Source: Roseovarius carneus
GTDB taxonomy: Bacteria; Pseudomonadota; Alphaproteobacteria; Rhodobacterales; Rhodobacteraceae
Assembly: GCF_020141465.1 (NCBI RefSeq)
Contig: NZ_JAHSPD010000001.1
Coordinates: forward strand, 620,001 to 684,000
Length of the DNA: 64,000 bases
Direction of reading: 5' to 3'
Positions 5,834-19,730 of this stretch are shown here, piece by piece. The notes beneath the pieces are model-generated. The model did no database searches. It was given only the letters and a program-made list of their open reading frames with translations, and had not been told where the DNA came from. Each line of letters opens with the position of its first letter. Positions within the stretch are counted from its first letter, which is position 1. The position numbers and the translations under genes are program-made.

Positions 5834-6129
5834 GCGTCACCACGCACTGCTTAAGCCTCGCGAAATAAGGCACTCCCCCCCCACCGGGTTCTGCGCATCC
5901 AACAGACTCTTCCCGTGCGGCCCCGACACAAGCGTGCGTTCTGCACCCCACCAAAACTACTGGTTGCCATTGCTCAAAAATAACCCAACAGTAAACATTG
6001 TTTCCTGAAGTGCGCATCAACGGGAGTGATGATGCGTTTTGATTTCAACATAAGAAGCAACCTGGAAACTCAAGAAACGATGTCGGCAAAGCGGTCGCCG
6101 ATATTATGAACAGTGGAGGAGACCCAAAT

Positions 6130-7509
6130 ATGTCCGTAGAATTAGCGACAATATACGCAGAGCAGGTAAGCCTGAACTCATTGGTGCAAAACCTCGTTTA
6201 CGCCTCAGGCGTTGTCGGGGCGATCACCGTGGTGGTCGGGCTTTTAATGATCGACGCGGGCACGACCCGACGCAAAAGCCTTTTCAACTCGACCATCGAA
6301 AAAGTCATGGGCTTTTTCATCGGTTTCTCTGTCTATTTCATAATCGGCTTCGGCTTCTGGGCCGCGCAGTATTACATCATGGAAGGTGCTACCATGGCTG
6401 ACAGTCTGCGGGACTGGTGGCTCTTTGGCGGCATGTTGAACGCGAATGCGTCCCTCACGGATCCGGCGGTCTTTCCGGGGCTGAACACGTTCCAGATCTT
6501 CGTGTTCTTCCTTGCCTGTTTTGCAGGCATCATCAACATCCTGTTCCACTTCGCCGTATCTGAGCGGATGAAGGCCTCGGCCTATTACGTGTTGTCGGCG
6601 GTCGCAGCCGTCGTGTCATCGGTGCTGAGCTATTACACTTGGGGCTCGGTCGGGCCGCTGACAAATGCGGGCTTCCACGACTTCTTCGGGGTTGGCTTCG
6701 TCTATCTCTTCCCCACCGGTATCGCGCTCGCTTTGCTGCCAATGCTTGGGGCGCGTCCCGGCATTTTCGAGCCACATCCGATGGTGCCGGGCTATTACGC
6801 GCCCAGCATCGGGCTGGCGGCTGTTGGGCTTTTGACCATATTCGCGGGCCTGCCCATGGTGATCGTTTCATGCCTGTTCTTCTTTGATCCCGAGGCGTTG
6901 GCGGTCAGCGTGACCATGGCCGACACCAGCGTGGGCCTTGCCCTCAACAACTATGCGATGTCATGGGCCGGCGGCGCCATTGGCGGCGGCATCATCGCCT
7001 ATGCGACCCGCAAATACGCCTACCTCCTCTTGGGGCCTTTGGGCGGATATGCGGCAGGCGCGTCAGGGTTTGACGTCTATGAACCCGCGCAGATGTTCCT
7101 TGTGGCCTTGGGCGCGCCTGTGGTGTGCTTCCTCGTGTATGAGTTCACACAGAAACGCCGCATCGACGAGCACAAGCTCCTGCCGCTCTTTTTCGGTGCG
7201 GGGGTGTATGGCCTGATCATGGTGGGGCTTGTGAAAGCTGGCACGCCGCGCGGCGGGTATTTCGGCATTGAGGAAGGCATCTACGCCTTCCAACACGGCG
7301 AAATCGGCATCGTGATGCAATTGGTCGGTATTGTGGTCTGCCTTGGCGCAGGGATCGTGACAGGCCTGGTCACAGCCCTTCTGTGTAAGGCCACGATCGG
7401 TCTGAAAGTCCCCGAGGAGGAGATGGCCGCAGGTCTGGATCATCTGCGCTGGGGCGTCGAGACCGACGTGGCCACCCATGAAGACACAAGCGCGTCCAAG
7501 TCCGCCTGA
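6130..7509 (+). CDS. Divergent ammonium-transporter (Amt) family protein lacking the twin histidines
   Basis: The 459-residue protein has about eleven hydrophobic helices and ends in the Amt C-terminal signature (LKVPEEEMAAGLDHLRWG). ATG at 6130 is preceded by GGAGGA nine bases upstream. By hand alignment with E. coli AmtB, the segment matching DFAGGTVVHI reads DFFGVGFVYLF, so the first pore histidine is Tyr, and the segment matching VFGVHGVCG reads LFFGAGVYG, so the second is Ala. The pore chemistry should therefore differ from ammonium transport. It converges on the amine-oxidation operon, which suggests an amine or methylated-amine substrate. The family is fairly sure; the substrate is inference. 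Confidence 0.75.
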   Translation: MSVELATIYAEQVSLNSLVQNLVYASGVVGAITVVVGLLMIDAGTTRRKSLFNSTIEKVMGFFIGFSVYFIIGFGFWAAQYYIMEGATMADSLRDWWLFGGMLNANASLTDPAVFPGLNTFQIFVFFLACFAGIINILFHFAVSERMKASAYYVLSAVAAVVSSVLSYYTWGSVGPLTNAGFHDFFGVGFVYLFPTGIALALLPMLGARPGIFEPHPMVPGYYAPSIGLAAVGLLTIFAGLPMVIVSCLFFFDPEALAVSVTMADTSVGLALNNYAMSWAGGAIGGGIIAYATRKYAYLLLGPLGGYAAGASGFDVYEPAQMFLVALGAPVVCFLVYEFTQKRRIDEHKLLPLFFGAGVYGLIMVGLVKAGTPRGGYFGIEEGIYAFQHGEIGIVMQLVGIVVCLGAGIVTGLVTALLCKATIGLKVPEEEMAAGLDHLRWGVETDVATHEDTSASKSA

Positions 7510-7519
7510 TCACGCGACG

Positions 7520-7543
7520 CGGGCGGGGGCCTCTCCCCGCCCG
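7520..7543 (+). terminator. Terminator-like hairpin after the Amt-like gene
   Basis: A nine-base-pair GC stem pairs 7520-7528 with 7535-7543 around a six-base loop, 11 bases after the stop codon. There is no clear T-run after it, so termination is likely but not certain. Confidence 0.55.
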
Positions 7544-7600
7544 TATTGCCCCCAAAGGACGAAAAGATGATCGCGCTTTGGGATCAACACCCGGTTTGCT

Positions 7601-7807
7601 TTAGGATTCCGGGCGGGTTTTCATCTCTTTCAAATGCTCCCGCAGGCGCGCTTTGTCCGCCTTGCGCGCGGTGCAGCTATCGCAATCCTCGGCAGCGGCC
7701 TCCGCCTCTGCTTCAAGCGCGGGCGAGGGTTTGGGCACCAAAAGCGCCCAAGCCGCACCGCTCGCCCCGAGGGTGAGCGCCGCCGCAAGGATCACCGCGC
7801 GCCTCAT
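7601..7807 (-). CDS. Small exported or membrane-anchored protein with a CxxC pair
   Basis: The 68-residue product starts with an ATG that overlaps the TGA of the upstream flavoprotein gene (ATGA at 7804-7807), strong evidence of a translated, coupled gene. Residues about 4-22 form a signal peptide or membrane anchor. The remainder is Ala/Glu-rich, carries one CDSC motif (a possible metal or disulfide site), and ends in a charged helix. I do not recognise a family. As the last gene of the amine-oxidation operon it could be an accessory of the flavoprotein or of an export step, but this is only inferred from position. Confidence 0.6.
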   Translation of the reverse strand: MRRAVILAAALTLGASGAAWALLVPKPSPALEAEAEAAAEDCDSCTARKADKARLREHLKEMKTRPES

Positions 7808-10350
7808 GCCGTGCCCGTTTCAAGATAGCGCTCCATCGGAGCTGCACTCGCCGGATCACCCTTCGCTTCCAACTCCAAAAAGTTGATCGCGGCCACTTCA
7901 TGTGCCGTAAGAGTGCGCAGCATGGGCAGGTCCTCCGCTGGGGCCATCGCTTCAAGCCCCCAGAAATCATCCATGTAATCAGGGAAGGACTTACGCCAAT
8001 CCGCAACCAGCTTTGCGAAATCCGCATCCGTTTTGGCGGCGGACGCGCGACCCGAGGCCAGAAGCTCATCGCGCGACCGTGGTGTCAGCCTGTATTTCTC
8101 CAAAAGGGGCACGACAGAGGCGGCGGCATATTCCTCGACCCGGGCCATAAGGCCCATTTTGCGCTGCTCGTCGTCGCTCAGCCGTTCTGCGATACCGTCA
8201 AAATAAGCCTCGCCCTCGACCTCCTCCTCATAGTATTGGACGAGCGTTTCAAGATACTTGGCCCGGCGCGGCGCCTGCATATGCGCCCCATCCGGCGTCT
8301 GGCCCACATCGACCCGGTCATGGATCAGCGGCACGTCGATGTCGTGATCCGTGTCCAGCTCGCGCGCATAGCGGTGCCCGGCATAGACCGCCGCCGCAAT
8401 GATCGCAGGGGCCTCGGCATCACCAATCCGTTTGAGCGTAAAGGGCAGTTTTGAGGCATCCTCGGCACCGTCCAGAAGCGCATGGTAAAGCGCATCATTC
8501 GGGGCGCGCTGCGTCACCATCACAACACTGGCGAAAGGCAGTTTGCGCGTCTCGCCGGTGTATTCACAGCTGAGCGTGGCGTGCGATCCGTCAAACGTGG
8601 TCAGAGCATGGCTCAGCTCGATCTTGACGCCCATACCCTGCAAGTGGCTGCGCACGCGCCACCGCTCGGACGTGTTCGCAGCCCATGGCGAAATCGCATC
8701 AGACGGCGTGCAGATCGTCACATCCAGCCCCGCCGATTTCAGCTTCTCGGCAATCACACCGCCCATGTAATAGCCGTCTTCGTCATAAACCAGCACGGGA
8801 CATGAGGGCAGTTTGCCGTCCATGATATCGTCGGGCGTGAGGATCTCGGCCCCCTCAGCGGCAACATCGACGTAAATCTCACCGTCAAAGCGATCCCTGC
8901 GCCATGTAGCGCCCGTGGCGAGAACCACGTGATCGGCCTCAACCGCGTGCACGTCTTCGGCGCTCAGATAGCTGTCCATGAAGATGTCGACATTCACCAT
9001 CTCCTGTAATTGCTGCACGCGGTAGTCACGCACGCGAATATATTCGCTCATCCCCGGCAGCTTCGCCTCACGGGTCACACGCCCACCAAGTTCGGTGTTG
9101 GCCTCCGCCACCATGACCTCGTAGCCGCGTTGTCCCAGCGCGCGCGCCGCCTCAAGCCCGGCGGGGCCGGAGCCTACGACGAGCACCTTTGCATCGCTGC
9201 CCTTTTCGGGTACGTCCTCAGGGTGCCAGCCCTTGCGCCACTCCTCTCCCATCGTGGGGTTCTGGGTGCAGCGAATGGGCACGCCAAGGCTGTCGCCGCT
9301 ATAGCAGATGTTGCAGCCAATACATTCTCGGATTGCGTTGAGGTCGCCAGCCTCAATCTTGGCAGGCAGATACGGATCGGCGATGGAGGGTCGCGCTGCG
9401 CCGATAAAATCAGTGATGCCGCGCTTGATCTGGCTGACCATCGTGTCGGGCGAGGTGAAGCGGCCCACGGTCACGACGGGCTTGGTTGTCTTGGATTTGA
9501 TGAAATCCATGTAAGGCTCCAGCGACGCCTCCTTGGTGAAACGGGACACACCCATTTCCACAGAATAATCCGCAATGTTGATGTCCCACAGATCGGGCAT
9601 TTCGGCCATCATCTCGAACATATCGCGCCGCTCGCCATGGATCGGCACCCCGTCCTCGCCAATCTCCTCGTCGGCGGCAAAACGCACAGCCACGGCGCAG
9701 CGATCGCCCACGGCGTCTTTCGTCTCCTCGATCAGCTCGCGGATGAGACGCGTGCGGTTCTCAAGGCTGCCGCCATATTCGTCAGATCGCTGATTAATCC
9801 GGGGGCTGAGGAAGTTGGACAGAAGATAAGTGTGCGTGGCGTAGACATAAACGATATCAAACTCCGCATCGCGCGCGCGCAGGGCCGCCTTGCGGTGCCA
9901 GCGGCGCAGATTGCGGATATCGGTCTTGTCCATCGCGCGGGTCTGGTAGGGGTGGCCCGCAAGGTTGGGCATGGAGGTGATATCCATCGCCACTTCGCGG
10001 CTGAAATTATTGGAGCTGCGCGCCCCGCCATACCAAAGCTCGGCCCCCGCCAGCGCGCCGTATTCGTGGATCTTCTCGGTCATCAGAGCGTTGGCGCGCA
10101 CGTCGCTATCGTCCCAGAGCGAGGCAGAGGCGTGTGGCAGATCATCCGAGGTGGGGTGGATCGAATTATATTCGGTGTTGATCACCCCCCAGCCGCCTTG
10201 CGCCTTCACATGACGCATCTCGGCCAGCATACGCGGACGGACCCAGCCCATGCCGGTGCAATGAGGCACCTGATAAAAGCGGTTCTTGGCCGTGACGGGC
10301 CCGATCTTCATCGGCTCAAACAGGATATCGTAACGGGGATCGCGGGTCAT
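7804..10350 (-). CDS. Trimethylamine dehydrogenase-like flavoprotein with extra C-terminal helical domain
   Basis: The 848-residue protein matches the TMADH/DMADH/histamine-dehydrogenase family over residues 1-683. It has an OYE-type barrel with VPHC (Cys31, the position of the 6-S-cysteinyl-FMN cysteine), a catalytic Tyr170/His173 pair, a 4Fe-4S set (Cys343, 346, 349, 361), then an FAD/NAD-like domain (VLVVGSGPAGLEAARAL). By alignment it keeps Tyr61, Ser75, Trp106 and the Trp of DLWDI, but the second bowl tryptophan next to the iron-sulfur site is missing. Residues 684-848 are an added helical domain. It is third in an operon after tetR and the second paralogue. Oxidative N-demethylation or deamination of an amine is likely; the substrate is unknown. 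Confidence 0.88.
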   Translation of the reverse strand: MTRDPRYDILFEPMKIGPVTAKNRFYQVPHCTGMGWVRPRMLAEMRHVKAQGGWGVINTEYNSIHPTSDDLPHASASLWDDSDVRANALMTEKIHEYGALAGAELWYGGARSSNNFSREVAMDITSMPNLAGHPYQTRAMDKTDIRNLRRWHRKAALRARDAEFDIVYVYATHTYLLSNFLSPRINQRSDEYGGSLENRTRLIRELIEETKDAVGDRCAVAVRFAADEEIGEDGVPIHGERRDMFEMMAEMPDLWDINIADYSVEMGVSRFTKEASLEPYMDFIKSKTTKPVVTVGRFTSPDTMVSQIKRGITDFIGAARPSIADPYLPAKIEAGDLNAIRECIGCNICYSGDSLGVPIRCTQNPTMGEEWRKGWHPEDVPEKGSDAKVLVVGSGPAGLEAARALGQRGYEVMVAEANTELGGRVTREAKLPGMSEYIRVRDYRVQQLQEMVNVDIFMDSYLSAEDVHAVEADHVVLATGATWRRDRFDGEIYVDVAAEGAEILTPDDIMDGKLPSCPVLVYDEDGYYMGGVIAEKLKSAGLDVTICTPSDAISPWAANTSERWRVRSHLQGMGVKIELSHALTTFDGSHATLSCEYTGETRKLPFASVVMVTQRAPNDALYHALLDGAEDASKLPFTLKRIGDAEAPAIIAAAVYAGHRYARELDTDHDIDVPLIHDRVDVGQTPDGAHMQAPRRAKYLETLVQYYEEEVEGEAYFDGIAERLSDDEQRKMGLMARVEEYAAASVVPLLEKYRLTPRSRDELLASGRASAAKTDADFAKLVADWRKSFPDYMDDFWGLEAMAPAEDLPMLRTLTAHEVAAINFLELEAKGDPASAAPMERYLETGTA

Positions 10351-10351
10351 A

Positions 10352-12427
10352 TCATAGCTCCGGAATATGGCGTTTCGTGTCGCTCAGCTCGGTTAGTTCG
10401 CGGTCAAAAGGCACAGCGTCACCACGATCCACCCCAAGATCGCGGGCATAGCGGTGCCCCGCATGAACCGCGGCGGCAATGGTGCTCGGGGCCAGCGCAT
10501 CACCAATCTTGGTGGCGCTGATCCCGGCGGCCTGTAAAGCATCGGCCAAGGTGCTATCCGGCTGCCGCATCGTCACCAGCAATGTGTGCGCGCAATCTAT
10601 CTGCGTCTCGGCGCCGGTGTAGCCGCACTCGGCGATCACATGGCCCTCATTGATGCGCGCAATGTTATGCGACAGCACAATCCGCGCGCCCATCTCAATC
10701 AACTTAGCCTGAATTTTGTGCTGCTCCAGCGTGTATTCTGTCCATGCGGAGACGGACGCGGCGGGCGTGACGAAGGTCACGTCCAGACACGCCGCCAACA
10801 ATTTTTCGGCAATGCTGCCGCCCATATAGAAGTGATCATCGTCGAAGATCACCACAGGCCCCTCGGGGATCATGCCTTTGAAGATATCATCGGGGGTGAG
10901 CACGCTTGCCGCCCCCGCCGTCTCGATGCCCAGCGGGTTGGCGCGGCCCCGGCCCGTGCGATCCCACGCAGCGCCAGTGGCAAGCGCGATGTGATCGGCC
11001 TCAAACTCGGCCACGGTCTCGGCACTCATCGGGCTGTTGAGGTAAAGGTTCACGTTTGGCATCTGGCTGATCTGGTACTCGCGGTAATCAGCCACACGGC
11101 CCCATTCAGCCAAGCCCGGAAGCCCACGCTCATCCGCCACGCGCCCACCGATCCGGTCCGATTGCTCCGCCACGGTCACGTCATAGCCTCGTTGGCCGAG
11201 CGCGCGCGCAGCCTCAAGCCCCGCGGGGCCTGCGCCGATGATCAGAACGCTCTCATCAGCGGCGCGTGGCGCGATCCGCTCAGGGTGCCAACCGCTGCGC
11301 CATTCCTCGCCCATTGTTGGGTTCTGCGTGCAGCGCAGGGGCTGAAACGTGCTGTCGGAGGCCACGCAGATATTGCAGCCGATGCATTCACGAATATCCT
11401 CAATCCGACCTTCCTCAACCTTCTTGGGCAGGAACGGATCTGCGATGGAAGGCCGTGCGGCCCCGATGAAATCCAGGTGACCGTTCTTGATCAGCGACAC
11501 CATCTGATCGGGCGAGGTATAGCGGCCCACACCCACAACAGGCTTCGTGGTGATGGATTTGACGAAGGACACATATTCATCCTGATAGCCCGTCTGCTTG
11601 AACCGCGAGGTGGCGCTGTCATTCTCCCAATCGGCGATGTTGACGTCCCACAGATCGGGGATCTCGGCCAGCATCTCGACCACATCGCGCCCCTCGCCGC
11701 CCGATTGCATACCAATGGCCCCGCGCAGCTCGTCCACGGAAAACCGGAATGCGATGCCGCAAGTGCCGCCCACGGCCTCCTTGGTTTCCTCCATCACCTC
11801 GCGCAGAAGGCGGATGCGGTTCTCAAGGCTGCCACCATACTCATCCATACGTTGATTCCAATCACGCGACAGGAAATGCGACAAGGTCGTTAGGCGGTGA
11901 CCCGCGTAAACATAGATAATATCAAACCCCGCATCACGCGCACGGCGCGCACCGTTCACATACCAGCGGCGCAGATCGCGAATGTCTTGGCGGTCCATCG
12001 CGCGGGCCTGCACCGGGTCGAGCGAGGCCACGGGTTGATGCGAGGGGGCCATGGGAGGCAGGCGGCTGAACCGGTTAGCGGCCATGAGGCCCGCATGGTT
12101 CAACTGTATCCCGGCAAGGCTGCCGTGCTCATGGATGCCCTCAACCATCCGCGAGAGATATGGCAGATCGCGGTCGTCCCAGATGCGCCCGCCATTCCAC
12201 GGGCTGTGATCACCAGAGGGATGGATTTCCGCCTCTTCCGTATTGACCACGGCCCAGCCGCCCTCGGCCTTGATGCGGCGCATTTCGGCCATGGCGCTGG
12301 GATAATTACGGCCCATACCGTTGCAATGGGGCACTTGATAGAACCGATTGCGCGCCGTCACTGGGCCGATTTTTACGGGTTCAAAAAGGATATCATAACG
12401 CGGATCGCGGGCGGTATCACGGGGCAT
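10352..12427 (-). CDS. Trimethylamine dehydrogenase-like flavoprotein, second paralogue
   Basis: The 691-residue protein has the usual length and order of the family: barrel with VPHC (Cys35), catalytic Tyr174/His177 pair, 4Fe-4S cysteines 348, 351, 354 and 366, then the dinucleotide-binding fold (VLIIGAGPAGLEAARAL). The amine-binding aromatic positions differ from TMADH: the Tyr60 equivalent is Glu65, the Trp105 equivalent is Asn110 (QLNHAG), and the Trp355 equivalent is absent. That points away from trimethylamine and towards a larger or zwitterionic N-methylated substrate, as in DgcA-type dimethylglycine or N-methylproline demethylases. Its start overlaps the tetR stop by 11 bp, and the next flavoprotein gene follows directly. 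Confidence 0.88.
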   Translation of the reverse strand: MPRDTARDPRYDILFEPVKIGPVTARNRFYQVPHCNGMGRNYPSAMAEMRRIKAEGGWAVVNTEEAEIHPSGDHSPWNGGRIWDDRDLPYLSRMVEGIHEHGSLAGIQLNHAGLMAANRFSRLPPMAPSHQPVASLDPVQARAMDRQDIRDLRRWYVNGARRARDAGFDIIYVYAGHRLTTLSHFLSRDWNQRMDEYGGSLENRIRLLREVMEETKEAVGGTCGIAFRFSVDELRGAIGMQSGGEGRDVVEMLAEIPDLWDVNIADWENDSATSRFKQTGYQDEYVSFVKSITTKPVVGVGRYTSPDQMVSLIKNGHLDFIGAARPSIADPFLPKKVEEGRIEDIRECIGCNICVASDSTFQPLRCTQNPTMGEEWRSGWHPERIAPRAADESVLIIGAGPAGLEAARALGQRGYDVTVAEQSDRIGGRVADERGLPGLAEWGRVADYREYQISQMPNVNLYLNSPMSAETVAEFEADHIALATGAAWDRTGRGRANPLGIETAGAASVLTPDDIFKGMIPEGPVVIFDDDHFYMGGSIAEKLLAACLDVTFVTPAASVSAWTEYTLEQHKIQAKLIEMGARIVLSHNIARINEGHVIAECGYTGAETQIDCAHTLLVTMRQPDSTLADALQAAGISATKIGDALAPSTIAAAVHAGHRYARDLGVDRGDAVPFDRELTELSDTKRHIPEL

Positions 12428-13121
12428 GTCGGGACGGGTCCTCTTGGCAGGAGCCTACGCCAATTTGGGCTGTGGCACCAAAATGTTTCGGCAAGGTCTG
12501 CGCGAGATATTCATGCACGCGTTGCTTGGCCTCCTCGCGCGAAAAATCACCAGGATAGATCAGGATGTTGAGCCAGAACCCATCGTAAAGCCCTTCGAGC
12601 ATGGTCGCGATCTGCTCGCCATCAAGCCCCTCATAGCCGCCCTCCGCAATGATGGTTTTCAACAGCTCATTCGAGGTCTCCCACCGCTCCGTGTCGATCT
12701 CGCTCACCAGTTCGCGATACGCCGCGCGGTAGCCCGCCTCGCCATAGAACCCAAACCAGACAGACAGGTTTTTACGGTTGCAGATCATTGGGTCAAAATG
12801 CGCATCCGCAATCGCCAGAAGCTGGGCTGCGGGCGTCATATCCGGGCTTCGCAGGCGTTTGCGCCACGTCTCGCGGTGCTCTTCGGCGAGATAGCGCAGC
12901 GTCTCCTCAAAGAGGTTTTCCTTGTTCTTGAAGTGGAAGTTCACAATACCCATCGACAGGCCCGCATACCCCGTCACCGTGGTCATCGTGGTGCCCGCAA
13001 TGCCAAATTTCGCAATGGATTCGATGGTGGCATCAATCAATTGCTGGCGGCGCACTTCGCGCGAGGCGGTGCGTCCGACTTTCTTGTTTGTGCGGGCCGC
13101 CTTGGCGGTCACTTCGGTCAT
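12417..13121 (-). CDS. TetR-family regulator, BetI-like
   Basis: The 234-residue regulator has an N-terminal helix-turn-helix (residues about 22-72; RRQQLIDATIESIAKFG through GIVNFHFKNKENLFEETL) and a C-terminal ligand domain whose LEGLYDGFWLNILIYPG segment matches BetI proteins, which repress choline-to-betaine genes and release DNA on binding choline. It sits between the transporter genes and the two flavoprotein genes and overlaps the latter, so it probably controls this cluster. A likely operator palindrome is found at 17463-17480. The inducer here need not be choline, because no betA or betB is present in the window. Confidence 0.88.
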   Translation of the reverse strand: MTEVTAKAARTNKKVGRTASREVRRQQLIDATIESIAKFGIAGTTMTTVTGYAGLSMGIVNFHFKNKENLFEETLRYLAEEHRETWRKRLRSPDMTPAAQLLAIADAHFDPMICNRKNLSVWFGFYGEAGYRAAYRELVSEIDTERWETSNELLKTIIAEGGYEGLDGEQIATMLEGLYDGFWLNILIYPGDFSREEAKQRVHEYLAQTLPKHFGATAQIGVGSCQEDPSRHAP

Positions 13122-13219
13122 GGCGTGTCTATCCTCGACTCGTCTTGGCTGCGGGGACTCCGCACCGTTTCTCGTCTGAAGCGCCGCGCGAGTTTGGCGG
13201 CGGTTGGCCGTGCGCGGGC

Positions 13220-14317
13220 TCAGTCTTTGGCCAACACTACGATCGCATCATCGCTCCAGTTGAGCCAAACCGGGCGCTCATCCGAAGGGTCGGGCGCAAA
13301 GCGCGTGCGGTTCTGCGCCGAGACGGCAACCGGCGCGTCCACACCGTCGATTGCCACATAGAAATGGCTCCGCTCACCCAAATAGGACGAATTGCGCAAT
13401 TGTCCCTGAACCATCTGGCCGTCGCCTTCGGGCTTGTCATCCGTCAGGAGCAGCTTCTCGGGACGGATGGCGACCTGAACCGCCTCACCCTCGTTGAAAT
13501 GGCGCTCGCCACGCGGCAACTGGAGGTTTCCAAGGCCCTGCGCTTCGATGTTCATCATCGCGCCATTGGTGGATTTCACCTCAGCCTCGAAGAAGTTCAT
13601 TGTGCCGATGAAAGATGCGACCTGCCGGGTTTTGGGCGTCTCATAGAGCCCGCTGGGCGTGTCCATTTGCAGCACGGTGCCAGCGGACATGACAGCCACT
13701 CGGTCCGACAGGGTCAGGGCCTCTTCCTGATCGTGGGTCACGAACACAAAGGTAATGCCCACTTGCCGCTGAAGTGCGCGCAGCTCAAGCTGCATCTGTT
13801 CGCGCAGCTGTTTGTCGAGCGCGCCGAGCGGTTCATCCAGAAGCAGCACTTTGGGTTTGAGGATCAAGGCACGCGCCAGGGCGATCCGTTGCCGCTGCCC
13901 TCCCGAAAGCTCGTTGGCCGCCCGGTCGCCATACCCCGGAAGGGCAATGAGATCGAGCATCTCGTCCACCTTGTCGGCGCGCGCCTGCTTGGTCAGCTTC
14001 TGACGGCGCAGGCCATAAGCGATGTTATCGCGCACATTGAGATGCGGGAAAATCGCGTAGCTCTGGAACACCATATTGACGGGGCGGTGATGCGGCGGGA
14101 CCTCGGACATGGGCTGTCCGTCGATATAGATCTCGCCCTTGGAGGGGTTCTCGAACCCCGCAAGCATCCGCAAGAGCGTGGTCTTGCCACAGCCCGACGC
14201 GCCAAGCAGCGAGAAAAACTCCCCATGGCCGATATCCATTGAGACGTTGTCGATGGCCTGAAACTTGCCGAAAAACTTGTCGACATTCTGGATCGAAATG
14301 AAGGCGTCGTTGCTCAT
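13220..14317 (-). CDS. ABC transporter ATP-binding protein, polyamine (PotA/PotG) type
   Basis: The 365-residue ATPase has a Walker A (LLGASGCGKTTLLR), the signature LSGGQRQRIALARAL, Walker B (VLLLDEPLGALD) and the switch histidine in FVTHDQEEAL, followed by a C-terminal TOBE domain (AIRPEKLLL). I took the ATG at 14317, nine bases after the upstream permease stop; a frame open to 14368 lies inside that permease. It energises uptake through the two permeases that precede it. The PotA-type sequence suggests a cationic amine, polyamine or related small molecule. Confidence 0.93.
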   Translation of the reverse strand: MSNDAFISIQNVDKFFGKFQAIDNVSMDIGHGEFFSLLGASGCGKTTLLRMLAGFENPSKGEIYIDGQPMSEVPPHHRPVNMVFQSYAIFPHLNVRDNIAYGLRRQKLTKQARADKVDEMLDLIALPGYGDRAANELSGGQRQRIALARALILKPKVLLLDEPLGALDKQLREQMQLELRALQRQVGITFVFVTHDQEEALTLSDRVAVMSAGTVLQMDTPSGLYETPKTRQVASFIGTMNFFEAEVKSTNGAMMNIEAQGLGNLQLPRGERHFNEGEAVQVAIRPEKLLLTDDKPEGDGQMVQGQLRNSSYLGERSHFYVAIDGVDAPVAVSAQNRTRFAPDPSDERPVWLNWSDDAIVVLAKD

Positions 14318-14325
14318 GGTCTGGC

Positions 14326-15138
14326 TCACTTTCGCACGGTGCTGATATGGGCGTCGCGGTTGATCCACTGGCCGAGGAAGACGATCACAAACGAGACCCC
14401 GATAATCATCGACGACAGGGCGAGAACCGATGGGAATTGCTGCGGGAAGCGCAACTGGCCCCAGATATACATCGGCAGGGTCGGCTCGGTCCCGGTCAGG
14501 AAGAACGCCATGATGAATTCGTCAAACGAGACGGTGAAGGTCAACAAAAGGCTGGCGAGGATACCCGGCCATACGACAGGCAGGGTCACCCGCCAAAATG
14601 TGTGCCACGCATTTTCGCCCAGATCGGCCGACGCCTCCTCCAGCGAGGGATCAAGCCCCTCGAAGCGGGGGATGAGCGTGGCGATGGCAAAGGGCAGGCA
14701 GATGATCACATGCCCAATGGCAACCGTATAAAGGCTGAGCGTTACGCCGAGGCTGCTCATCAGCACCAAAAGGGCCACGCCGAAGATAATCCCCGGCACA
14801 ACGAGCGGCAGCATGATAAACGCAACAATCGCGTTCTGGCCTGGCAGGCGGTACTTGGTGATCGCCTTGGCCGCGAAGATGCCCAGTGTGGTGGCCATCA
14901 CAGCCGTCGCCGCCCCCACTTTGACACTGTTCATCAAAGCGGCCCAGACAGGCTCGCGCTGAAAAAGCTCCGTATACCATTGCAGCGTGAACCCGGTGAG
15001 CGGGAAGCTGACATAGAGCGAATCGTTGAAGCTGAAGAGCGGCAGGAACAGGATCGGGATGTAGAGCGCGATAAGAAAGATGATCGCATAGACCTGAAGG
15101 GGCCTGTTCGGCCGTCGGATATAGGATTCGGTGCTCAT
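14326..15138 (-). CDS. ABC transporter permease, PotC/PotI type
   Basis: The 270-residue inner-membrane protein has about six transmembrane helices and the EAA loop (LEEASADLGENAWHTFWRVT) that docks on the ATPase. The start overlaps the preceding permease stop as ATGA at 15135-15138, so the two are translationally coupled. It forms the heterodimeric channel with the upstream permease. Confidence 0.93.
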   Translation of the reverse strand: MSTESYIRRPNRPLQVYAIIFLIALYIPILFLPLFSFNDSLYVSFPLTGFTLQWYTELFQREPVWAALMNSVKVGAATAVMATTLGIFAAKAITKYRLPGQNAIVAFIMLPLVVPGIIFGVALLVLMSSLGVTLSLYTVAIGHVIICLPFAIATLIPRFEGLDPSLEEASADLGENAWHTFWRVTLPVVWPGILASLLLTFTVSFDEFIMAFFLTGTEPTLPMYIWGQLRFPQQFPSVLALSSMIIGVSFVIVFLGQWINRDAHISTVRK

Positions 15139-16073
15139 GCCATCCGCTCCTTGAAGACTTTGGTTAGGGCGAGGAACACGAGGCCAATCGCCGAGATGTA
15201 AAGCATCAAGCCAATGGCCAGCGTCGCCCCCATGGGCCAGTTATTCACCGGACCAAATTGCAGTTGAATGAGGTTACCGATCATCATCCCGTCCGGGCCG
15301 CCGAGAAGGGCGGGCGTGATGTAATCACCGGTCGTGGGAATGAAGATCAAAAAGCTCGCGGCGATCACACCGGGCATCGACAGGGGCAGCGTGATGCGGA
15401 AGAAGCGGGCCATAGGCCCGTCGCCCAGATCCGTTGCCGCCTCAAGAAGCGAGCGGTCGATCTTCTCAAGGCTCACATAAATCGGCAGGATCGCAAAAGC
15501 GACCCATGAGTGGGCGAGCGTGATGACGACCGCCTGTTGGCTATAGAGCAAAAACTCAAGCGGTGCGTCGATGAACCCGGCCCAAAGCAGACCCGAGTTG
15601 ATCACACCCTCATAGCCCAGCACCACTTTCCACGCGAAAACGCGCAACAGGTAGCTTGTCCAGAACGGAAGGGTCATCAACACGATCCACATCATCTTGT
15701 TTTTGTGGACGTGGAAAGCGACGTAATAGGCCATCGGGTAGGACAAGAGCACCGTCGCGACAGTGGCCCAGCCCGAGATAACCAAAGACCGGTGCATCAG
15801 GGCGCCGTAGATCGGCTGCTCCAGAGCGGTCTCGTAATTTGCGGTTGTGAGGGTGGTGTCGAAGTCAAAGCCCATGGCGGTCCAGAGGCTCATCGTGATG
15901 AGAATAGCGAAGGGAACGACGATGCCAACGGTCATTACAACCAAGGTCGGGCTCAGCAGGAAAAAGCCGCGCAATGTCTCGCTGCGCTGAAGCATGCCTG
16001 CGAATTTTCCGCGCCTTCGGGCGGGCGGCGCCTCTACCGCGGCATCGTTCAAAGTGACATTCGTATTGGTCAT
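15135..16073 (-). CDS. ABC transporter permease, PotB/PotH type
   Basis: The product is 312 residues from the ATG at 16073, which has GAAGAGG about nine bases upstream; the frame open to 16154 has no such site. A hydrophilic N-terminus of about 35 residues precedes six membrane helices, and the EAA loop (LLEAATDLGDGPMARFFRIT) is clear. The long periplasmic loop after the first helix is typical of PotB/PotH. It follows the binding-protein gene after a gap that holds a strong hairpin. Confidence 0.92.
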   Translation of the reverse strand: MTNTNVTLNDAAVEAPPARRRGKFAGMLQRSETLRGFFLLSPTLVVMTVGIVVPFAILITMSLWTAMGFDFDTTLTTANYETALEQPIYGALMHRSLVISGWATVATVLLSYPMAYYVAFHVHKNKMMWIVLMTLPFWTSYLLRVFAWKVVLGYEGVINSGLLWAGFIDAPLEFLLYSQQAVVITLAHSWVAFAILPIYVSLEKIDRSLLEAATDLGDGPMARFFRITLPLSMPGVIAASFLIFIPTTGDYITPALLGGPDGMMIGNLIQLQFGPVNNWPMGATLAIGLMLYISAIGLVFLALTKVFKERMA

Positions 16074-16158
16074 TTCAGGCCTCTTCCCATGGTGTCTGGC
16101 ATACGGCGCTAGATCCAAGCCGCATAGCGCGCGGCAAGGAGGGTCTGCGTGCAAGATC

Positions 16159-16180
16159 AGGGCGGCCCCATGGCCGCCCT
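16159..16180 (-). promoter_or_regulatory. Intra-operon hairpin between binding-protein and permease genes
   Basis: A nine-base-pair stem pairs 16159-16167 with 16172-16180 around a CCAT loop. It has no T-run. Such stems between a binding-protein gene and its permease genes usually protect or partly terminate the mRNA, so that more binding protein than channel is made. Confidence 0.6.
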
Positions 16181-16195
16181 GTCAGACTGTCTGGA

Positions 16196-17317
16196 TCAGA
16201 AGCCGGCTTTGATTTGCTCAAAGAGGCCATTCATCTTGGATTCGAACTCTTGCGTCTGGGGCTTTTGGAAGTGTCCGGCCTCAAGAATTTCCGCAGGGTT
16301 TTTGCTCAGGCCGAGACCGACGAGTGTTTCCTCATCGAACTCATCAAAGCTCTTGGCGTTCGAGTGGCCATAACCGTAATCGTTGATCATGAACTTGCCG
16401 GTATCGACGCTCAGCAGGCTGTCGATCACGTCATAGGCACGGTCCACATTGGGCGCGTCCTTGTGAACCATCAGACCGCACACCCATGTCAGGGCACCCT
16501 CTTTGGGCTGTGCGAAACGGACCGGGATACCTTCGGCGGCCAGAAGCGTGGCCGAGGAGTTCCATGTCATCGCCGCAACCATCTCGCCCGAGGCAAGAGC
16601 CTGCTCCAGCGTGGTGGTATCATCGGTATAGACCCGGATATGGGGGCGCTGCTCACGCATGACGGCTGCAATCGCCTCAAACGCTTCGGGCGTGTCGATG
16701 TTATCGAAATCAACGCCCGCTTTGATCGCGCCAACCCACCAAGCATCCGCGCCGGAGCCGAGGCTGCCAAGGCGACCTGCATAACGCTCGTCCCACAGAA
16801 GATCCCAGCTTTCTTCGCCTTCGATCTCAACCAGATCGGTGCGGTACGTGATGGAGGTCTGACCCCAATCAAATGGCACCATCCAGAGGTTGTCGCCGTC
16901 CACATTACCATCAAGCTGCGTCAGCTCGGGGATGATGTCGCCAAAATGCGCAAGGCGCGAGGTATCGACCGATTGGAAAAGGCCGCTGGCGGCCCAGCGT
17001 GGCACAGCCTGATTACAGGGGTGCGACACGTCCACGACGAAACCGCCACGCATTTTGGTCAGCGCCTCCTCAGACGCACCAAAGATTGAGAAGTTTGGCA
17101 GCTCACCATGCTTGGCCTGATACTCGCCAAAAAGCTCTGGGATGTCATAGCCACCCCATGTGAAATATGTGGCCTGATCTTCAGGTGCGGCCATTGCCTT
17201 GCGGCCTGCAAACGGCACTGTGGCCATGCCGACACCTGCCGCAGCAAGCGAGCGCGTGAACGCGCGGCGGCTCATTTTGCCTTCCCGCACAGCGCCGATT
17301 TGGTCGAGTACATCCAT
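16196..17317 (-). CDS. ABC transporter substrate-binding protein, polyamine (PotD/PotF) type, Tat-exported
   Basis: The 373-residue periplasmic binding protein has a twin-arginine signal (SRRAFTRSLAAAGVGMATVPF) at about residues 16-40 and then the PotD-like fold (TYFTWGGYDIPELFGEYQ; DLWMVPFDWGQTSI; MTWNSS). The ATG at 17317 has GGGAGA five to six bases upstream. It is the first gene of the long minus-strand operon, 293 bp from the divergent cupin gene. The ligand is unknown; the family binds polyamines and related cationic molecules. Confidence 0.9.
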   Translation of the reverse strand: MDVLDQIGAVREGKMSRRAFTRSLAAAGVGMATVPFAGRKAMAAPEDQATYFTWGGYDIPELFGEYQAKHGELPNFSIFGASEEALTKMRGGFVVDVSHPCNQAVPRWAASGLFQSVDTSRLAHFGDIIPELTQLDGNVDGDNLWMVPFDWGQTSITYRTDLVEIEGEESWDLLWDERYAGRLGSLGSGADAWWVGAIKAGVDFDNIDTPEAFEAIAAVMREQRPHIRVYTDDTTTLEQALASGEMVAAMTWNSSATLLAAEGIPVRFAQPKEGALTWVCGLMVHKDAPNVDRAYDVIDSLLSVDTGKFMINDYGYGHSNAKSFDEFDEETLVGLGLSKNPAEILEAGHFQKPQTQEFESKMNGLFEQIKAGF

Positions 17318-17403
17318 TTGGTCTTCTCCCTAGTTGATCGAGCCTGTTCCGGCCCCTTTAGTGGCGTCGTTTATGACGCTGACGATGCGGGTTGCCTTTG
17401 GTC

Positions 17404-17421
17404 CGTCTCTCAAGGGAGACG
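17404..17421. promoter_or_regulatory. Six-base-pair inverted repeat in the divergent leader
   Basis: CGTCTC at 17404-17409 is repeated inverted as GAGACG at 17416-17421 around a six-base spacer, between the palindromic operator and the binding-protein gene. It may be a second protein site or a short stem in the 5' leader; nothing else distinguishes these. Confidence 0.3.
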
Positions 17422-17462
17422 TCCCTTTAACTGACAGACCTAGCACTCTTTCCCGCTCGCTA

Positions 17463-17480
17463 ATTGAATGATCGTTCAAT
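17463..17480. promoter_or_regulatory. Probable BetI-like/TetR operator in the divergent promoter
   Basis: The 18-mer ATTGAATGATCGTTCAAT is palindromic at eight of nine base-pair positions. It lies about 146 bp from the start of the minus-strand transporter operon and 130 bp before the plus-strand cupin gene. As I recall the E. coli bet operator, it also contains the ATTGAAC half-site, so binding by the BetI-like regulator of this cluster is a reasonable inference and would control both directions at once. Confidence 0.65.
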
Positions 17481-17610
17481 GAATGGGTTGCTTTACAAGA
17501 CCTGTCAAGACAACAATCCGGCCATGCAACAGCTGCATGGCTAAATTCCACGCGCTGCCAAAAAATGCAGCAGGTCGCAAATTTGCCTCTGAAATCAGGA
17601 GAGAAAACCG

Positions 17611-18378
17611 ATGACAAACCAAGCAAGCATTATCAGACTTGAGGCAAATGGCCCCGGCGGCGCGGGCCTCAAACCGATGACGCTGAACGCGGCGGATTTC
17701 CAGTCGCCCCTGCCCAATCAGCACTCTCACTCTTACTACAGTGATGAATCAAAAGGGATAAACGTCGGTGTCTGGGACACGACCACGATGCAGGAGGCGT
17801 TCGGCCCCTACCCCGGAGACGAGTTCATCTGGGTGCTGGAGGGCGCGTTTGAAATGACCGACGGCAAGGGCGGCAGCGTGCCTGCCCGCGCAGGTCAGGC
17901 CGTGTGTTTTCGCAATGGCGCCCCAGTCAGTTGGAAGCAGGACGGATACCTTAAGAAATTCTTCATCACATATTTGGAACCGGGCGCCAAAACGCCAAAA
18001 ATCGAATCGGCAGAAGGCGGAATTGTTGTTCTCGACCCCGATGCGAAGATGGACCTGATGGACACAACAGACCCGTTCGTGATCAAGGGTGCGGCCCCCA
18101 AGCAGCACAATCTGACCAGCTTCACCAATGACACAGGCAACATGTTCATGGGCCAGTGGGATAGCGGCCCGATGATCAGCGAAATGCGGCCCTTCCCCAC
18201 CCATGAGTTTGTGCAAATGCTCGAAGGGGAGGTGACCATCACCGAAGACACCGGGGCGGAGCAAACCTTCCGCGCGGGGGATTGCTTTTTCGTGCCAAAG
18301 GGGACCGTCTGTAGCTGGGAAATCCCGGATTACGTGCGCAAATTCTATTGCATCCTCGATGTGGGATCGGACGCATGA
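17611..18378 (+). CDS. Double-cupin protein (DUF861-like)
   Basis: The 255-residue cytoplasmic protein has two cupin barrels, at about residues 55-125 and 175-250. Each ends with a similar YLKKFFITYLE or YVRKFYCILDV strand, a sign of internal duplication. Family members include ureidoglycine aminohydrolase-like and small-ligand-sensing cupins. Metal-ligand histidines are sparse (a THEF motif in the second barrel), so catalysis is uncertain. GGAGAG precedes the start. Its stop overlaps the amine oxidase start as ATGA, and the pair faces the transporter operon across a shared promoter region, so it probably serves the same amine pathway. Confidence 0.82.
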   Translation: MTNQASIIRLEANGPGGAGLKPMTLNAADFQSPLPNQHSHSYYSDESKGINVGVWDTTTMQEAFGPYPGDEFIWVLEGAFEMTDGKGGSVPARAGQAVCFRNGAPVSWKQDGYLKKFFITYLEPGAKTPKIESAEGGIVVLDPDAKMDLMDTTDPFVIKGAAPKQHNLTSFTNDTGNMFMGQWDSGPMISEMRPFPTHEFVQMLEGEVTITEDTGAEQTFRAGDCFFVPKGTVCSWEIPDYVRKFYCILDVGSDA

Positions 18379-19730
18379 GCGCAGGCATGACACGCCGCGC
18401 GGCACTGGCCGCCATCGCCGGGGGGATTGCCGGGGCCACAGCCTCCGCAGGTCGCGCCACTGCGCAGGCTATTCCAACCAACCCCGATGTCGTGGTGATC
18501 GGCGCAGGGGCTGCCGGTCTCGCCGCCGCGCGCGAGCTTAAGGCGCAGGGTAAATCGGTGGTCGTTGTGGAGGCCGCAGGCCGCATGGGCGGACGGGCGT
18601 GGACCGAAAGCGAGACATTCGGCGTGCCCTACGATCAGGGGGCGGCTTGGATCAACGCGTCCAACATCAACCCGTTCACCCGCATCGCGCGCGAGGGGGG
18701 ATTTGATCTGGTCGATTACACCAATGCAGGCTCTGCCTTTTACGTAGATGGCACACGCGCCACCGCGGCCCAAAGCGCCTCTTACAGCCGCGCGTGGAGC
18801 GCGGTCGGGGGCGCGCTGGCCAAGGCGGGCGAAGCAGAGCAGGACATTGCCGCCTCGGAGGTGATACCGAAGGACATAAAATATTCCGGCACGGTCAAAG
18901 CATGGATCGGCCCGATGGATTGGGGGGTCGATATGTCTGACCTTTCAACCGCTGATTATTGGAACAGCGGCGAGGCGCAGCCCTCATTCATGGTGCGCGA
19001 AGGCCTTGGGGCTGTGGTGGAATACTACGGGCGGGACGCGCCCGTGGTCCTCAACGCCCCGGTGAGCGAGATCGACTGGAGCGGGGCCGGCGTGCGTGTG
19101 ACCACCTCGCAAGGGGTGATCAGCGCCAAGGCGGCCATCGTCACCGTCTCCACCGGCGTTCTGGCCAGCGGCGCAATCCGCTTCACGCCCGCCCTGCCCC
19201 TTACCACGCAAGAGGCGGTGGACGGCCTGCCCATGGGCCTTTTGATGAAGATCGCGCTGCAATTTGATGGTGCAAAGCTTGGTCTCGCCGATAACAGCTG
19301 GCTTGATTATGCGGTGCCCGAAAACATGCCTGCCAAGGCGTCATTCTTTGTCACATGGCCCTTCGGCGGGGATATCTCCGTGGGATTTGCGGGCGGCGAA
19401 TTCGGCTGGGAGCTTTCGACGGCAGGACCAGAGGCGGCTGTGGATTTCGCCTTGGGAGAGTTGGTGAAGATTGCAGGCTCGGACGCGCGCAAACATTTCG
19501 TCAAAGGCGCGATGAGCGATTGGGCAAGTAACCCGCTTACCCTCGGGGCCTATGCTGCGGCGCGGCCCGGACAATACGGCGCGCGCGCCGCGTTGGAAGC
19601 CCCATTGGGCGATAAAGTCTGGTTCGCCGGTGAGGCGCTTGGCGGGGATTACACGGGCCTTGTGAGCGGTGCCTATTTCAGCGGCAAATCAATGGCACAG
19701 CGGCTGGTGACGGCTGGGGCGGCCGAGTGA
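18375..19730 (+). CDS. FAD-dependent amine oxidase with Tat signal
   Basis: The 451-residue flavoprotein has a twin-arginine signal (MTRRAALAAIAGG) near residues 5-30, an ADP-binding fold (VVVIGAGAAGLAAARELK) and the GGRAW motif after it, as in monoamine and polyamine oxidases. The C-terminal FAD segment VWFAGEALGGDYTGLVSGAY is also typical. It should oxidise an amine to imine or aldehyde with release of ammonia or a smaller amine, probably in the periplasm. The start at 18375 overlaps the cupin stop (ATGA). It converges on nadE with three bases between the stops. Confidence 0.88.
   Translation: MSAGMTRRAALAAIAGGIAGATASAGRATAQAIPTNPDVVVIGAGAAGLAAARELKAQGKSVVVVEAAGRMGGRAWTESETFGVPYDQGAAWINASNINPFTRIAREGGFDLVDYTNAGSAFYVDGTRATAAQSASYSRAWSAVGGALAKAGEAEQDIAASEVIPKDIKYSGTVKAWIGPMDWGVDMSDLSTADYWNSGEAQPSFMVREGLGAVVEYYGRDAPVVLNAPVSEIDWSGAGVRVTTSQGVISAKAAIVTVSTGVLASGAIRFTPALPLTTQEAVDGLPMGLLMKIALQFDGAKLGLADNSWLDYAVPENMPAKASFFVTWPFGGDISVGFAGGEFGWELSTAGPEAAVDFALGELVKIAGSDARKHFVKGAMSDWASNPLTLGAYAAARPGQYGARAALEAPLGDKVWFAGEALGGDYTGLVSGAYFSGKSMAQRLVTAGAAE

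Follow-up and report, generated by a model that had tools for sequence, protein, structure and literature searches.

Layout of the island

We analyzed a stretch of 64,000 nucleotides of the Roseovarius carneus genome (3.05 Mb), namely, positions 620001 to 684000 of contig NZ_JAHSPD010000001.1 (here, C1:620001-684000, or the window), in which positions 7601 to 19730 hold an island of transport, flavoenzyme, and regulator genes. The gene set, which comprises a substrate-binding protein (SBP), two permeases, an ATPase, a TetR protein, two flavoproteins, and a divergent pair of cupin and amine oxidase genes, is real and conserved. We give about even chances to the view that TetR controls the island as one regulon, through which an N-alkylated (most likely N-methylated) amine would be taken up and oxidized in steps, the amine being neither trimethylamine (TMA) nor a plain polyamine.

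On the minus strand, the first gene encodes SBP (16196..17317), which Pfam, NCBIfam, and an alignment with PotD identify as a PotD/PotF-type binding protein with a twin-Arg motif and with the acidic anchors of PotD replaced. It is followed by the PotB/PotH-type permease POTB (15135..16154; PF00528, 2.7e-9), the PotC/PotI-type permease POTC (14326..15138; PF00528, 4e-14), and the PotA/PotG-type ATPase POTA (13220..14368), which scores 374.2 bits with TIGR01187 (cut-off, 355.6). The best NCBIfam matches of the permeases are PotB and PotC, respectively, each under its cut-off. Next come a TetR regulator with a BetI-type C-terminal domain (12417..13121; PF13977, 2.9e-19) and two proteins like the amine dehydrogenases that carry a 6-S-Cys-linked flavin mononucleotide (FMN), here called FLB (10352..12427; 691 amino acids) and FLA (7804..10350; 848 amino acids; PF00724, 2.4e-72). 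Both contain Oxidored_FMN and find 3k30 as their best match in the Protein Data Bank (PDB). Residues 676 to 848 of FLA (7807..8325) form an extra C-terminal helical domain, FLAct, recognized by alignment, AlphaFold2, and Foldseek. The last gene is an open reading frame (7601..7807) for a 68-amino-acid protein with an N-terminal hydrophobic stretch and a CDSC motif; its start overlaps the FLA stop (ATGA), and similar small genes exist in two related loci (L039 and L043). On the plus strand, a double-cupin protein (17611..18378; 255 amino acids; Cupin_3 in two stretches; PDB 3myx, 5.8e-18) precedes a flavin amine oxidase of about 451 amino acids (18375..19730; PF01593, 1.8e-51) with TRRAAL in its N-terminus.

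A preliminary description of this locus had named these proteins and held them to be tied together by overlaps and one divergent promoter. All of the proteins are present with the families given there, and the genes are indeed tightly packed: FLA and FLB are 1 bp apart, and overlaps of 11 bp, 43 bp, and 4 bp join FLB to TetR, POTA to POTC, and POTC to POTB, respectively. The cupin and amine oxidase genes share ATGA, provided that the oxidase starts at 18375, a start that was chosen from this overlap. A promoter and terminator scan gave 3 promoter-like sites (4.8 in shuffled sequences) and 16 terminator-like sites (11.8 in shuffled sequences) and was not used.

Conservation of the gene set

For comparison, the best 80 of 576 loci were kept from a scan of a named collection for relatives of FLA; the closest of these matches are from Rhodobacteraceae. 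Forty-three of the 80 loci match FLA with at least 60% identity over more than 300 residues and are here called ortholog loci, while the other 37 serve as a more distant comparison set. In the ortholog loci, genes were counted at identities of at least 55% (SBP and POTA), 60% (FLB), 45% (cupin and amine oxidase), 35% (dimethylglycine dehydrogenase [DMGDH] type), and 30% (Rieske oxygenase). Presence counts are minimum values, as many contigs break off within the island.

The 43 ortholog loci contain TetR in 30 cases, FLAct in 26, FLB in 22, the same SBP in 18, POTA in 18, the cupin in 14, the amine oxidase in 11, and, by tblastn, the small CDSC protein in 4. Where the same SBP is present (18 loci), POTA accompanies it in 18 cases, TetR in 17, FLAct in 14, FLB in 12, and the cupin or amine oxidase in 12. 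The 37 distant loci contain no SBP at 55% identity or more, any SBP (at least 20%) in 4 cases, POTA (at least 40%) in 5, TetR in 2, and the cupin (at least 25%) in 1; the amine oxidase (at least 29%), FLAct, and the Amt-like gene that adjoins the island in the window are absent from all 37. In a family sample, FLA is matched at an E value of 1e-150 or lower in 70 of 248 genomes, and the best match reaches at least 62% identity in 16, including R. carneus itself. Without the Amt-like gene, the set is found together in Pelagibius litoralis and at many loci of Rhodobacteraceae, which bears out the co-occurrence in related genomes, one of the two points on which the preliminary description had staked its proposal.

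Genes for a PuuB-like DAO oxidase (14), a class-III aminotransferase (10), an aldehyde dehydrogenase (9), and a DMGDH/GcvT-type protein (6) recur in the ortholog loci; in a Yoonia locus (L071), the DAO-type oxidase and aldehyde dehydrogenase genes continue after FLA on the same strand, which we count in favor of the N-alkylated-amine regulon. The first three neighbors, together with a glutamine-synthetase-like gene near FLA in one genome (L044, the same place as L080), favor an ordinary catabolism of polyamines or biogenic amines (putrescine, spermidine, agmatine, or histamine) through a Pot importer, an amine oxidase, and histamine-dehydrogenase-like enzymes. We regard this explanation as rather unlikely, for reasons that lie in the flavoproteins and the binding protein (see below).

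Two kinds of gene were seen beside FLA as side observations. (i) A third, more distant flavoprotein of the old yellow enzyme type (about 650 to 690 amino acids; 28 to 32% identity) follows FLA or FLAct in L061 (12802-14763), L063 (12788-14854), L075 (12784-14739), and L039 (1486-3447); its closest candidate in the R. carneus genome, at C1:1574025 (29%), lies outside the island. (ii) An adjacent pair of CrtO-like flavin adenine dinucleotide (FAD) oxidoreductases with a second TetR gene is found near FLA in 4 of the 43 loci (e.g., L045, 17884-20000, and L048, 3550-6716). In Shinella, such a pair (L055, 965-4127) stands with TetR, a Pot importer, and aminotransferase, Rieske, and aminomethyltransferase-like genes.

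Regulator and candidate operator

The gap between the SBP and cupin genes contains ATTGAATGATCGTTCAAT, and the candidate TetR operator is TTGAATGATCGTTCAA (17464..17479). Its pattern, the palindrome TGAAY-N4-RTTCA, was looked for in 18 regions upstream of SBP, i.e., the window and 17 of the 18 same-SBP relatives (L138 has no upstream sequence), and is present in 16. All 39 copies in the 80 loci fall within 27 of the 43 ortholog loci, and 36 of the 39 lie outside matched genes. From base composition, 1.6 sites would be expected in the 791 kb of ortholog sequence, where 39 were counted, and 0.6 in the 632 kb of the 37 other loci, where there are none; the pattern read backwards is absent from both sets. 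In the R. carneus genome, the 16-base form has a single site, in the divergent SBP-cupin gap, and the 14-base form has seven sites. One palindrome in the shared gap and the co-occurrence of the genes tie the two divergent operons together, as had been proposed, and the island is likely one regulon, probably under one regulator. The pairing of TetR with this palindrome is a prediction.

In a Roseovarius locus (L128), two further copies of the palindrome stand between matches to the class-III aminotransferase and the DMGDH/GcvT-type protein, and in L080, one copy is flanked by a DMGDH-type match on one side and the TetR gene on the other. These positions suggest that the aminotransferase and DMGDH-type enzymes can be regulon members in other genomes.

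The TetR protein shares the C-terminal domain PF13977 with BetI-type repressors, from which it differs in its amine-oxidation operon setting, in its predicted operator, and in its scores, which fall under both BetI equivalog cut-offs (TIGR03384, 117.9 versus 201.3 bits; NF001978, 116.4 versus 118 bits). The BetI-type domain is one reason to consider that the island breaks down a betaine or other quaternary ammonium compound (similar to carnitine, proline betaine, or choline), a reading that we hold to be improbable: apart from the unmatched cut-offs, the ten window proteins scanned include no match to a Rieske or MttB family, and a Rieske gene occurs in only 3 of the 43 ortholog loci.

Flavoproteins FLA and FLB

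Both flavoproteins have the domains of the TMA dehydrogenase (TMADH) and histamine dehydrogenase superfamily, i.e., Oxidored_FMN followed by an FAD/NAD-binding C-terminal half. They had been described as TMADH-like; the family holds, but histamine dehydrogenases are closer. The best solved relative is the histamine dehydrogenase 3k30 (676.7 bits for FLA and 779 bits for FLB), TMADH scores lower (516.9 and 542 bits), and 6l6j stands between. Residues were tallied over the window protein and its relatives (41 for FLA, 26 for FLB, and 18 for SBP). The Cys that would link FMN covalently is present in all 41 readable FLA rows of 42 and in 27 of 27 FLB rows, at a position that agrees with the Cys-to-Ala difference between PDB rows 1djn and 1djq. 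The four Cys residues for the iron-sulfur cluster are conserved in 42 of 42 FLA rows and are visible for FLB in the PDB alignment.

The pocket of FLA is rebuilt. Compared with Methylophilus TMADH (1djn), FLA retains Y60 (41/42), the loop NTEY.SI.P.SDD, W105, Y169, and H172, whereas W264 is replaced by Y (42/42), D267 by E (42/42), and W355 by D (41/42), and the ferritin-like domain is appended. The aromatic bowl, which we take to consist of Y60, W264, and W355 (we likewise presume the roles of the other TMADH residues), thus reads Y/Y/D in FLA and E/W/D in FLB. When FLA- and FLB-like proteins were placed in a midpoint-rooted tree that contains neither TMADH nor histamine dehydrogenase, all 42 FLA terminals grouped in a single clade (support, 0.985). 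The subfamily extends beyond this clade, as at least 11 of 40 rows from more distant proteins share the Y/Y/E/D pattern. Eight of those rows (L100 to L105, L107, and L109) are from Acidimicrobiia or groups below it (5), Actinomycetes, Acidobacteria, and an unclassified organism (1 each).

With the histamine dehydrogenases of Nocardioides simplex (3k30) and Rhizobium sp. (6de6), the island proteins share the domain order, the FMN-linking Cys, the [4Fe-4S] Cys residues, and the Tyr/His pair. In a study of histamine dehydrogenase, the active-site list includes Gln65, Trp267, and Asp358 (PMC10180351). FLB has the equivalents of W267 and D358, and its W, D, and D are kept in 27 of 27 rows, whereas the Gln65 position is E in 22 rows, the window included, and Q in 5, so that the full Q/W/D set is limited to those 5. 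FLA, which has D at D358, departs further, with Y at Gln65, Y at W267, and the extra C-terminal domain; the next acidic position, D in 3k30, is E in FLA. This kinship lends weight to a polyamine or biogenic amine as substrate, the more so as agmatine, 1,3-diaminopropane, and polyamines are described there as side substrates of histamine dehydrogenases (PMC10180351); against it, Y60, W105, and the DD loop of FLA are as in TMADH and not as in histamine dehydrogenase.

The preliminary description saw no obvious described counterpart of the island, which was too strong. The nicotine cluster of Agrobacterium tumefaciens S33 combines a Pot ATP-binding cassette (ABC) importer, a histamine-dehydrogenase-like enzyme (Pno), an amine oxidase (Hno), and TetR (PMC5500553); this combination of classes is therefore a known arrangement. 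It raises the possibility that the island degrades a nicotine-like N-heterocycle by the S33 logic, in which an amine oxidase and ring opening are followed by a flavoprotein that releases methylamine, and FLB is 48% identical to the 6-hydroxypseudooxynicotine oxidase NdpC of Sphingobium xenophagum. Yet in the one NdpC sequence compared, the FMN Cys is replaced by Ala and D358 by Val, unlike in FLA and FLB, the island amine oxidase is only 24% identical to NdpB, and the ten window proteins scanned include no match to the pyridine-ring enzymes annotated in L175. We consider such a pathway very unlikely. Four features are apparently new: the pocket signature of FLA, its fusion to a ferritin-like domain, the operator, and the conservation of the regulon. 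Among the papers listed in searches of an open-access collection on polyamines, the gene combination, ferritin-like fusions, and the degradation of long-chain polyamines, we recognized no description of them, nor of such an island apart from the papers on nicotine (PMC5500553 and, by its listing, PMC7688666).

FLB-like paralogs also speak for the betaine reading, in that they adjoin a Rieske oxygenase gene in R. carneus (L054; best NCBIfam match GbcA, under its cut-off) and in Leisingera (L177) and a trimethylamine-methyltransferase-family gene in Mesorhizobium.

Separately, the R. carneus locus (L054, 8642-14434; C1:1633.6-1639.4 kb) is a second cluster in this genome, with an FLB-like flavoprotein (58%), the Rieske oxygenase, TetR, and a class-III aminotransferase, and a Leisingera thetidis plasmid (L177) carries a related set with a Pot importer and an agmatinase-annotated gene.

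Ferritin-like domain of FLA

FLAct, of about 160 amino acids, had no Pfam match at an E value of 0.1 or lower in one scan and one match, at 0.1, in another. A profile of 24 members found DUF2383 (0.017), Mrr_N (0.023), and Rubrerythrin (0.028) as its best Pfam matches, and the best sequence-profile match in the PDB was a splicing factor subunit (E value, 0.13). The AlphaFold2 model is all-helical, with a mean predicted local distance difference test score (pLDDT) of 93.2 and a predicted template modeling score (pTM) of 0.85. In Foldseek, ferritin-like chains (YciE and ferritins) lead, making up most of the 50 PDB rows shown, with template modeling scores mostly of 0.4 to 0.65; the best E value is 0.05, and none is 0.001 or lower. 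Against a viral fold library, the best match is a rubrerythrin-type domain (0.006), with none at 0.001. Modeled in this way, FLAct has the fold of the ferritin-like helical bundle superfamily, with weak E values. The dimetal ligand set of such proteins is presumably E, ExxH, E, ExxH; in the alignment of 24, which leaves out L063 and L076, the invariant residues are E33-35, E64, E125, H142, E143, and E153, and no ExxH follows E64.

Of 25 loci, 18 have FLAct as part of FLA, 6 (L063 among them) have it apart from FLA, and in 1 (L076) it is cut; this count leaves out L093, where the domain lies on the other strand. In a class sample, it is present in 9 of 289 genomes, including R. carneus. Among the eight others, FLAct adjoins an amine oxidase in L162, where FLA, TetR, and the complete importer are also present, and in L164, together with a piece of SBP, and it lies near a POTA match in the short locus L163. 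Three weak matches (28 to 30% identity; L167 to L169) have no island gene nearby. Gene neighborhood thus ties most FLAct copies to amine catabolism. Two stand-alone copies point toward betaines, one near quaternary-amine-type ABC genes recognized by eye (L165) and the other near DMGDH-like genes and, by eye, an MttB-like gene (L166). In L164, we also noted that a histone-deacetylase-family protein (455-1399; PF00850), which we presume could be an acetylpolyamine amidohydrolase, adjoins the stand-alone FLAct gene and the amine oxidase.

A bolder idea, which we think unlikely, is that FLA represents a new class of amine dehydrogenase, a TMADH-type 6-S-Cys-FMN/[4Fe-4S] enzyme with a Y/Y/E/D pocket and a built-in diiron ferritin-like module that would take electrons from the iron-sulfur cluster or destroy peroxide or aldehyde by-products. 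It would help to break down an N-methylated amine from the environment that is so far not known to feed bacteria, e.g., the N-methylated polyamines of diatom silica.

Importer and amine oxidase arm

The best scores of the importer are to Pot families, in keeping with the polyamine explanation. SBP scores with both PotD and PotF, far under their NCBIfam cut-offs, and resembles these polyamine-binding proteins in its fold family, as judged by sequence, and in conserved Trp positions, while differing in the loss of the acidic anchors, the gain of two Cys residues, and the twin-Arg motif. D168, E171, and D257 of PotD, which we take to be the acidic residues that hold the polyamine nitrogens, are G, A, and C in the window protein and, among its orthologs, G/A, A/S/V, and C (18/18 readable), while S83 is also C (18/18 readable). 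The replacement of these anchors argues against a plain polyamine, although binding proteins can rebuild their pockets. The only two Cys residues of the window SBP occupy the PotD ligand positions S83 and D257. The pair is conserved in every full-length relative (17/17), 11 of these relatives have a third Cys, and the pair may form a disulfide or contact the ligand.

The preliminary description's twin-arginine translocation (Tat) signal on the amine oxidase is corroborated by the twin-Arg motif of the window protein, and 10 of 16 amine oxidase rows match it. SBP carries such a motif, too: SRR.F is seen by eye in 18 of 18 relatives, and a regular expression matches 13 of the 18, in three of the 13 elsewhere in the protein.

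Proposed pathway and its substrate

Gene content, synteny, conservation of the palindrome, pocket residues, and the fold class of the added domain come from the computations; on this basis, we propose an oxidative N-dealkylation or deamination with the following order of steps. (i) A Pot-type binding protein, presumably Tat-exported, and the ABC importer would take up the amine, and the amine oxidase, presumably also Tat-exported, could make a first cut in the periplasm. (ii) In the cytosol, FLA, with its TMADH-like but acid-containing pocket, would oxidize a secondary or tertiary amine to an iminium, which would hydrolyze to an aldehyde and a smaller amine. (iii) The remaining amine would be oxidized in the cytosol by FLB, whose pocket is partly of the histamine dehydrogenase type. 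(iv) Electrons would pass from the flavin to the [4Fe-4S] cluster and from there probably to electron-transferring flavoprotein, and a possible role of the ferritin-like domain of FLA is to bind metal and to deal with electrons or peroxide. (v) The BetI-like TetR would sit on the palindrome at 17464-17479 and leave when the substrate or a product binds.

TMA is an unlikely substrate. About 440 kb away in the same genome, C1:1.08-1.09 Mb encodes two proteins that exceed their NCBIfam cut-offs: a TMA N-oxide (TMAO) demethylase (1209 versus 1100 bits) and a type III glutamine synthetase (653.7 versus 469.6 bits), the latter of which we take to be of the GmaS type. Because of these genes, TMA probably has its own route, although no search for Tmm was made, and methylamine released by the island could be assimilated. 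The earlier remark that the island lacks any gene of the Tmm/GMA route holds for the window proteins scanned, and not for the genome, given the TMAO demethylase and GmaS-type genes. The suggestion that the pathway, for an N-methylated amine, polyamine, or betaine, is separate from the TMA route is supported by these genes elsewhere in the genome, while its substrate class is still a matter of inference. For homarine, another candidate, the papers listed in a search of an open-access collection mention it once or twice, and none has a homarine operon as its subject by title or start of abstract, which neither confirms nor excludes it.

Several points weigh against the proposed N-alkylated-amine regulon. 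(i) Its substrate is putative. (ii) The count of palindromes upstream of SBP is no blind test because the pattern was fixed after the palindromes had been seen, and the G+C content is lower in the ortholog loci than in the control loci (0.576 versus 0.645). (iii) Six loci (L064, L072, L076, L081, L085, and L090) pair FLA with a different Pot system (SBP, 22 to 26% identity), so the importer appears exchangeable. (iv) The divergent arm is loosely conserved (cupin, 14/43; amine oxidase, 11/43), partly since contigs end, and 6 of the 16 amine oxidase rows lack the twin-Arg match, although another copy has one in five of these six loci. (v) FLB, found in only 22 of the 43 loci, forms no clean clade (30 of 58 terminals), and a second step by FLB is therefore not universal. 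(vi) The DMGDH-type neighbor, which is not an island gene, is limited to 6 of the 43 loci. (vii) For the ferritin-like fold, Foldseek E values begin at 0.05, and the root mean square deviation is 4.5 to 10 Å for most rows shown.

The island defines a testable regulon for an unassigned amine, next to the TMAO demethylase and GmaS-type genes that the same bacterium has, and it may account for part of the turnover of dissolved organic nitrogen that current marker genes miss. It also yields two searchable items, a marker (the FLA signature with the ferritin-like domain) and a candidate operator.

Amt-like neighbor

An Amt-like protein (6106..7509, plus strand; Ammonium_transp in Pfam) adjoins the island. 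It had been described as lacking His, and its alignment with Amt-1 agrees; the twin His residues, at what we take to be their positions in Amt-1, align with Tyr and Phe, and it scores 106.8 bits with TIGR00836 (cut-off, 343.3). Its inclusion in the unit is rejected, as the gene is found in none of the 43 ortholog loci within the fetched flank and is matched in 5 of 149 family genomes, including R. carneus; in the four others (69 to 76% identity), it is unlinked to the island. From its sequence, the protein is a candidate sensor or an Amt with an altered substrate.

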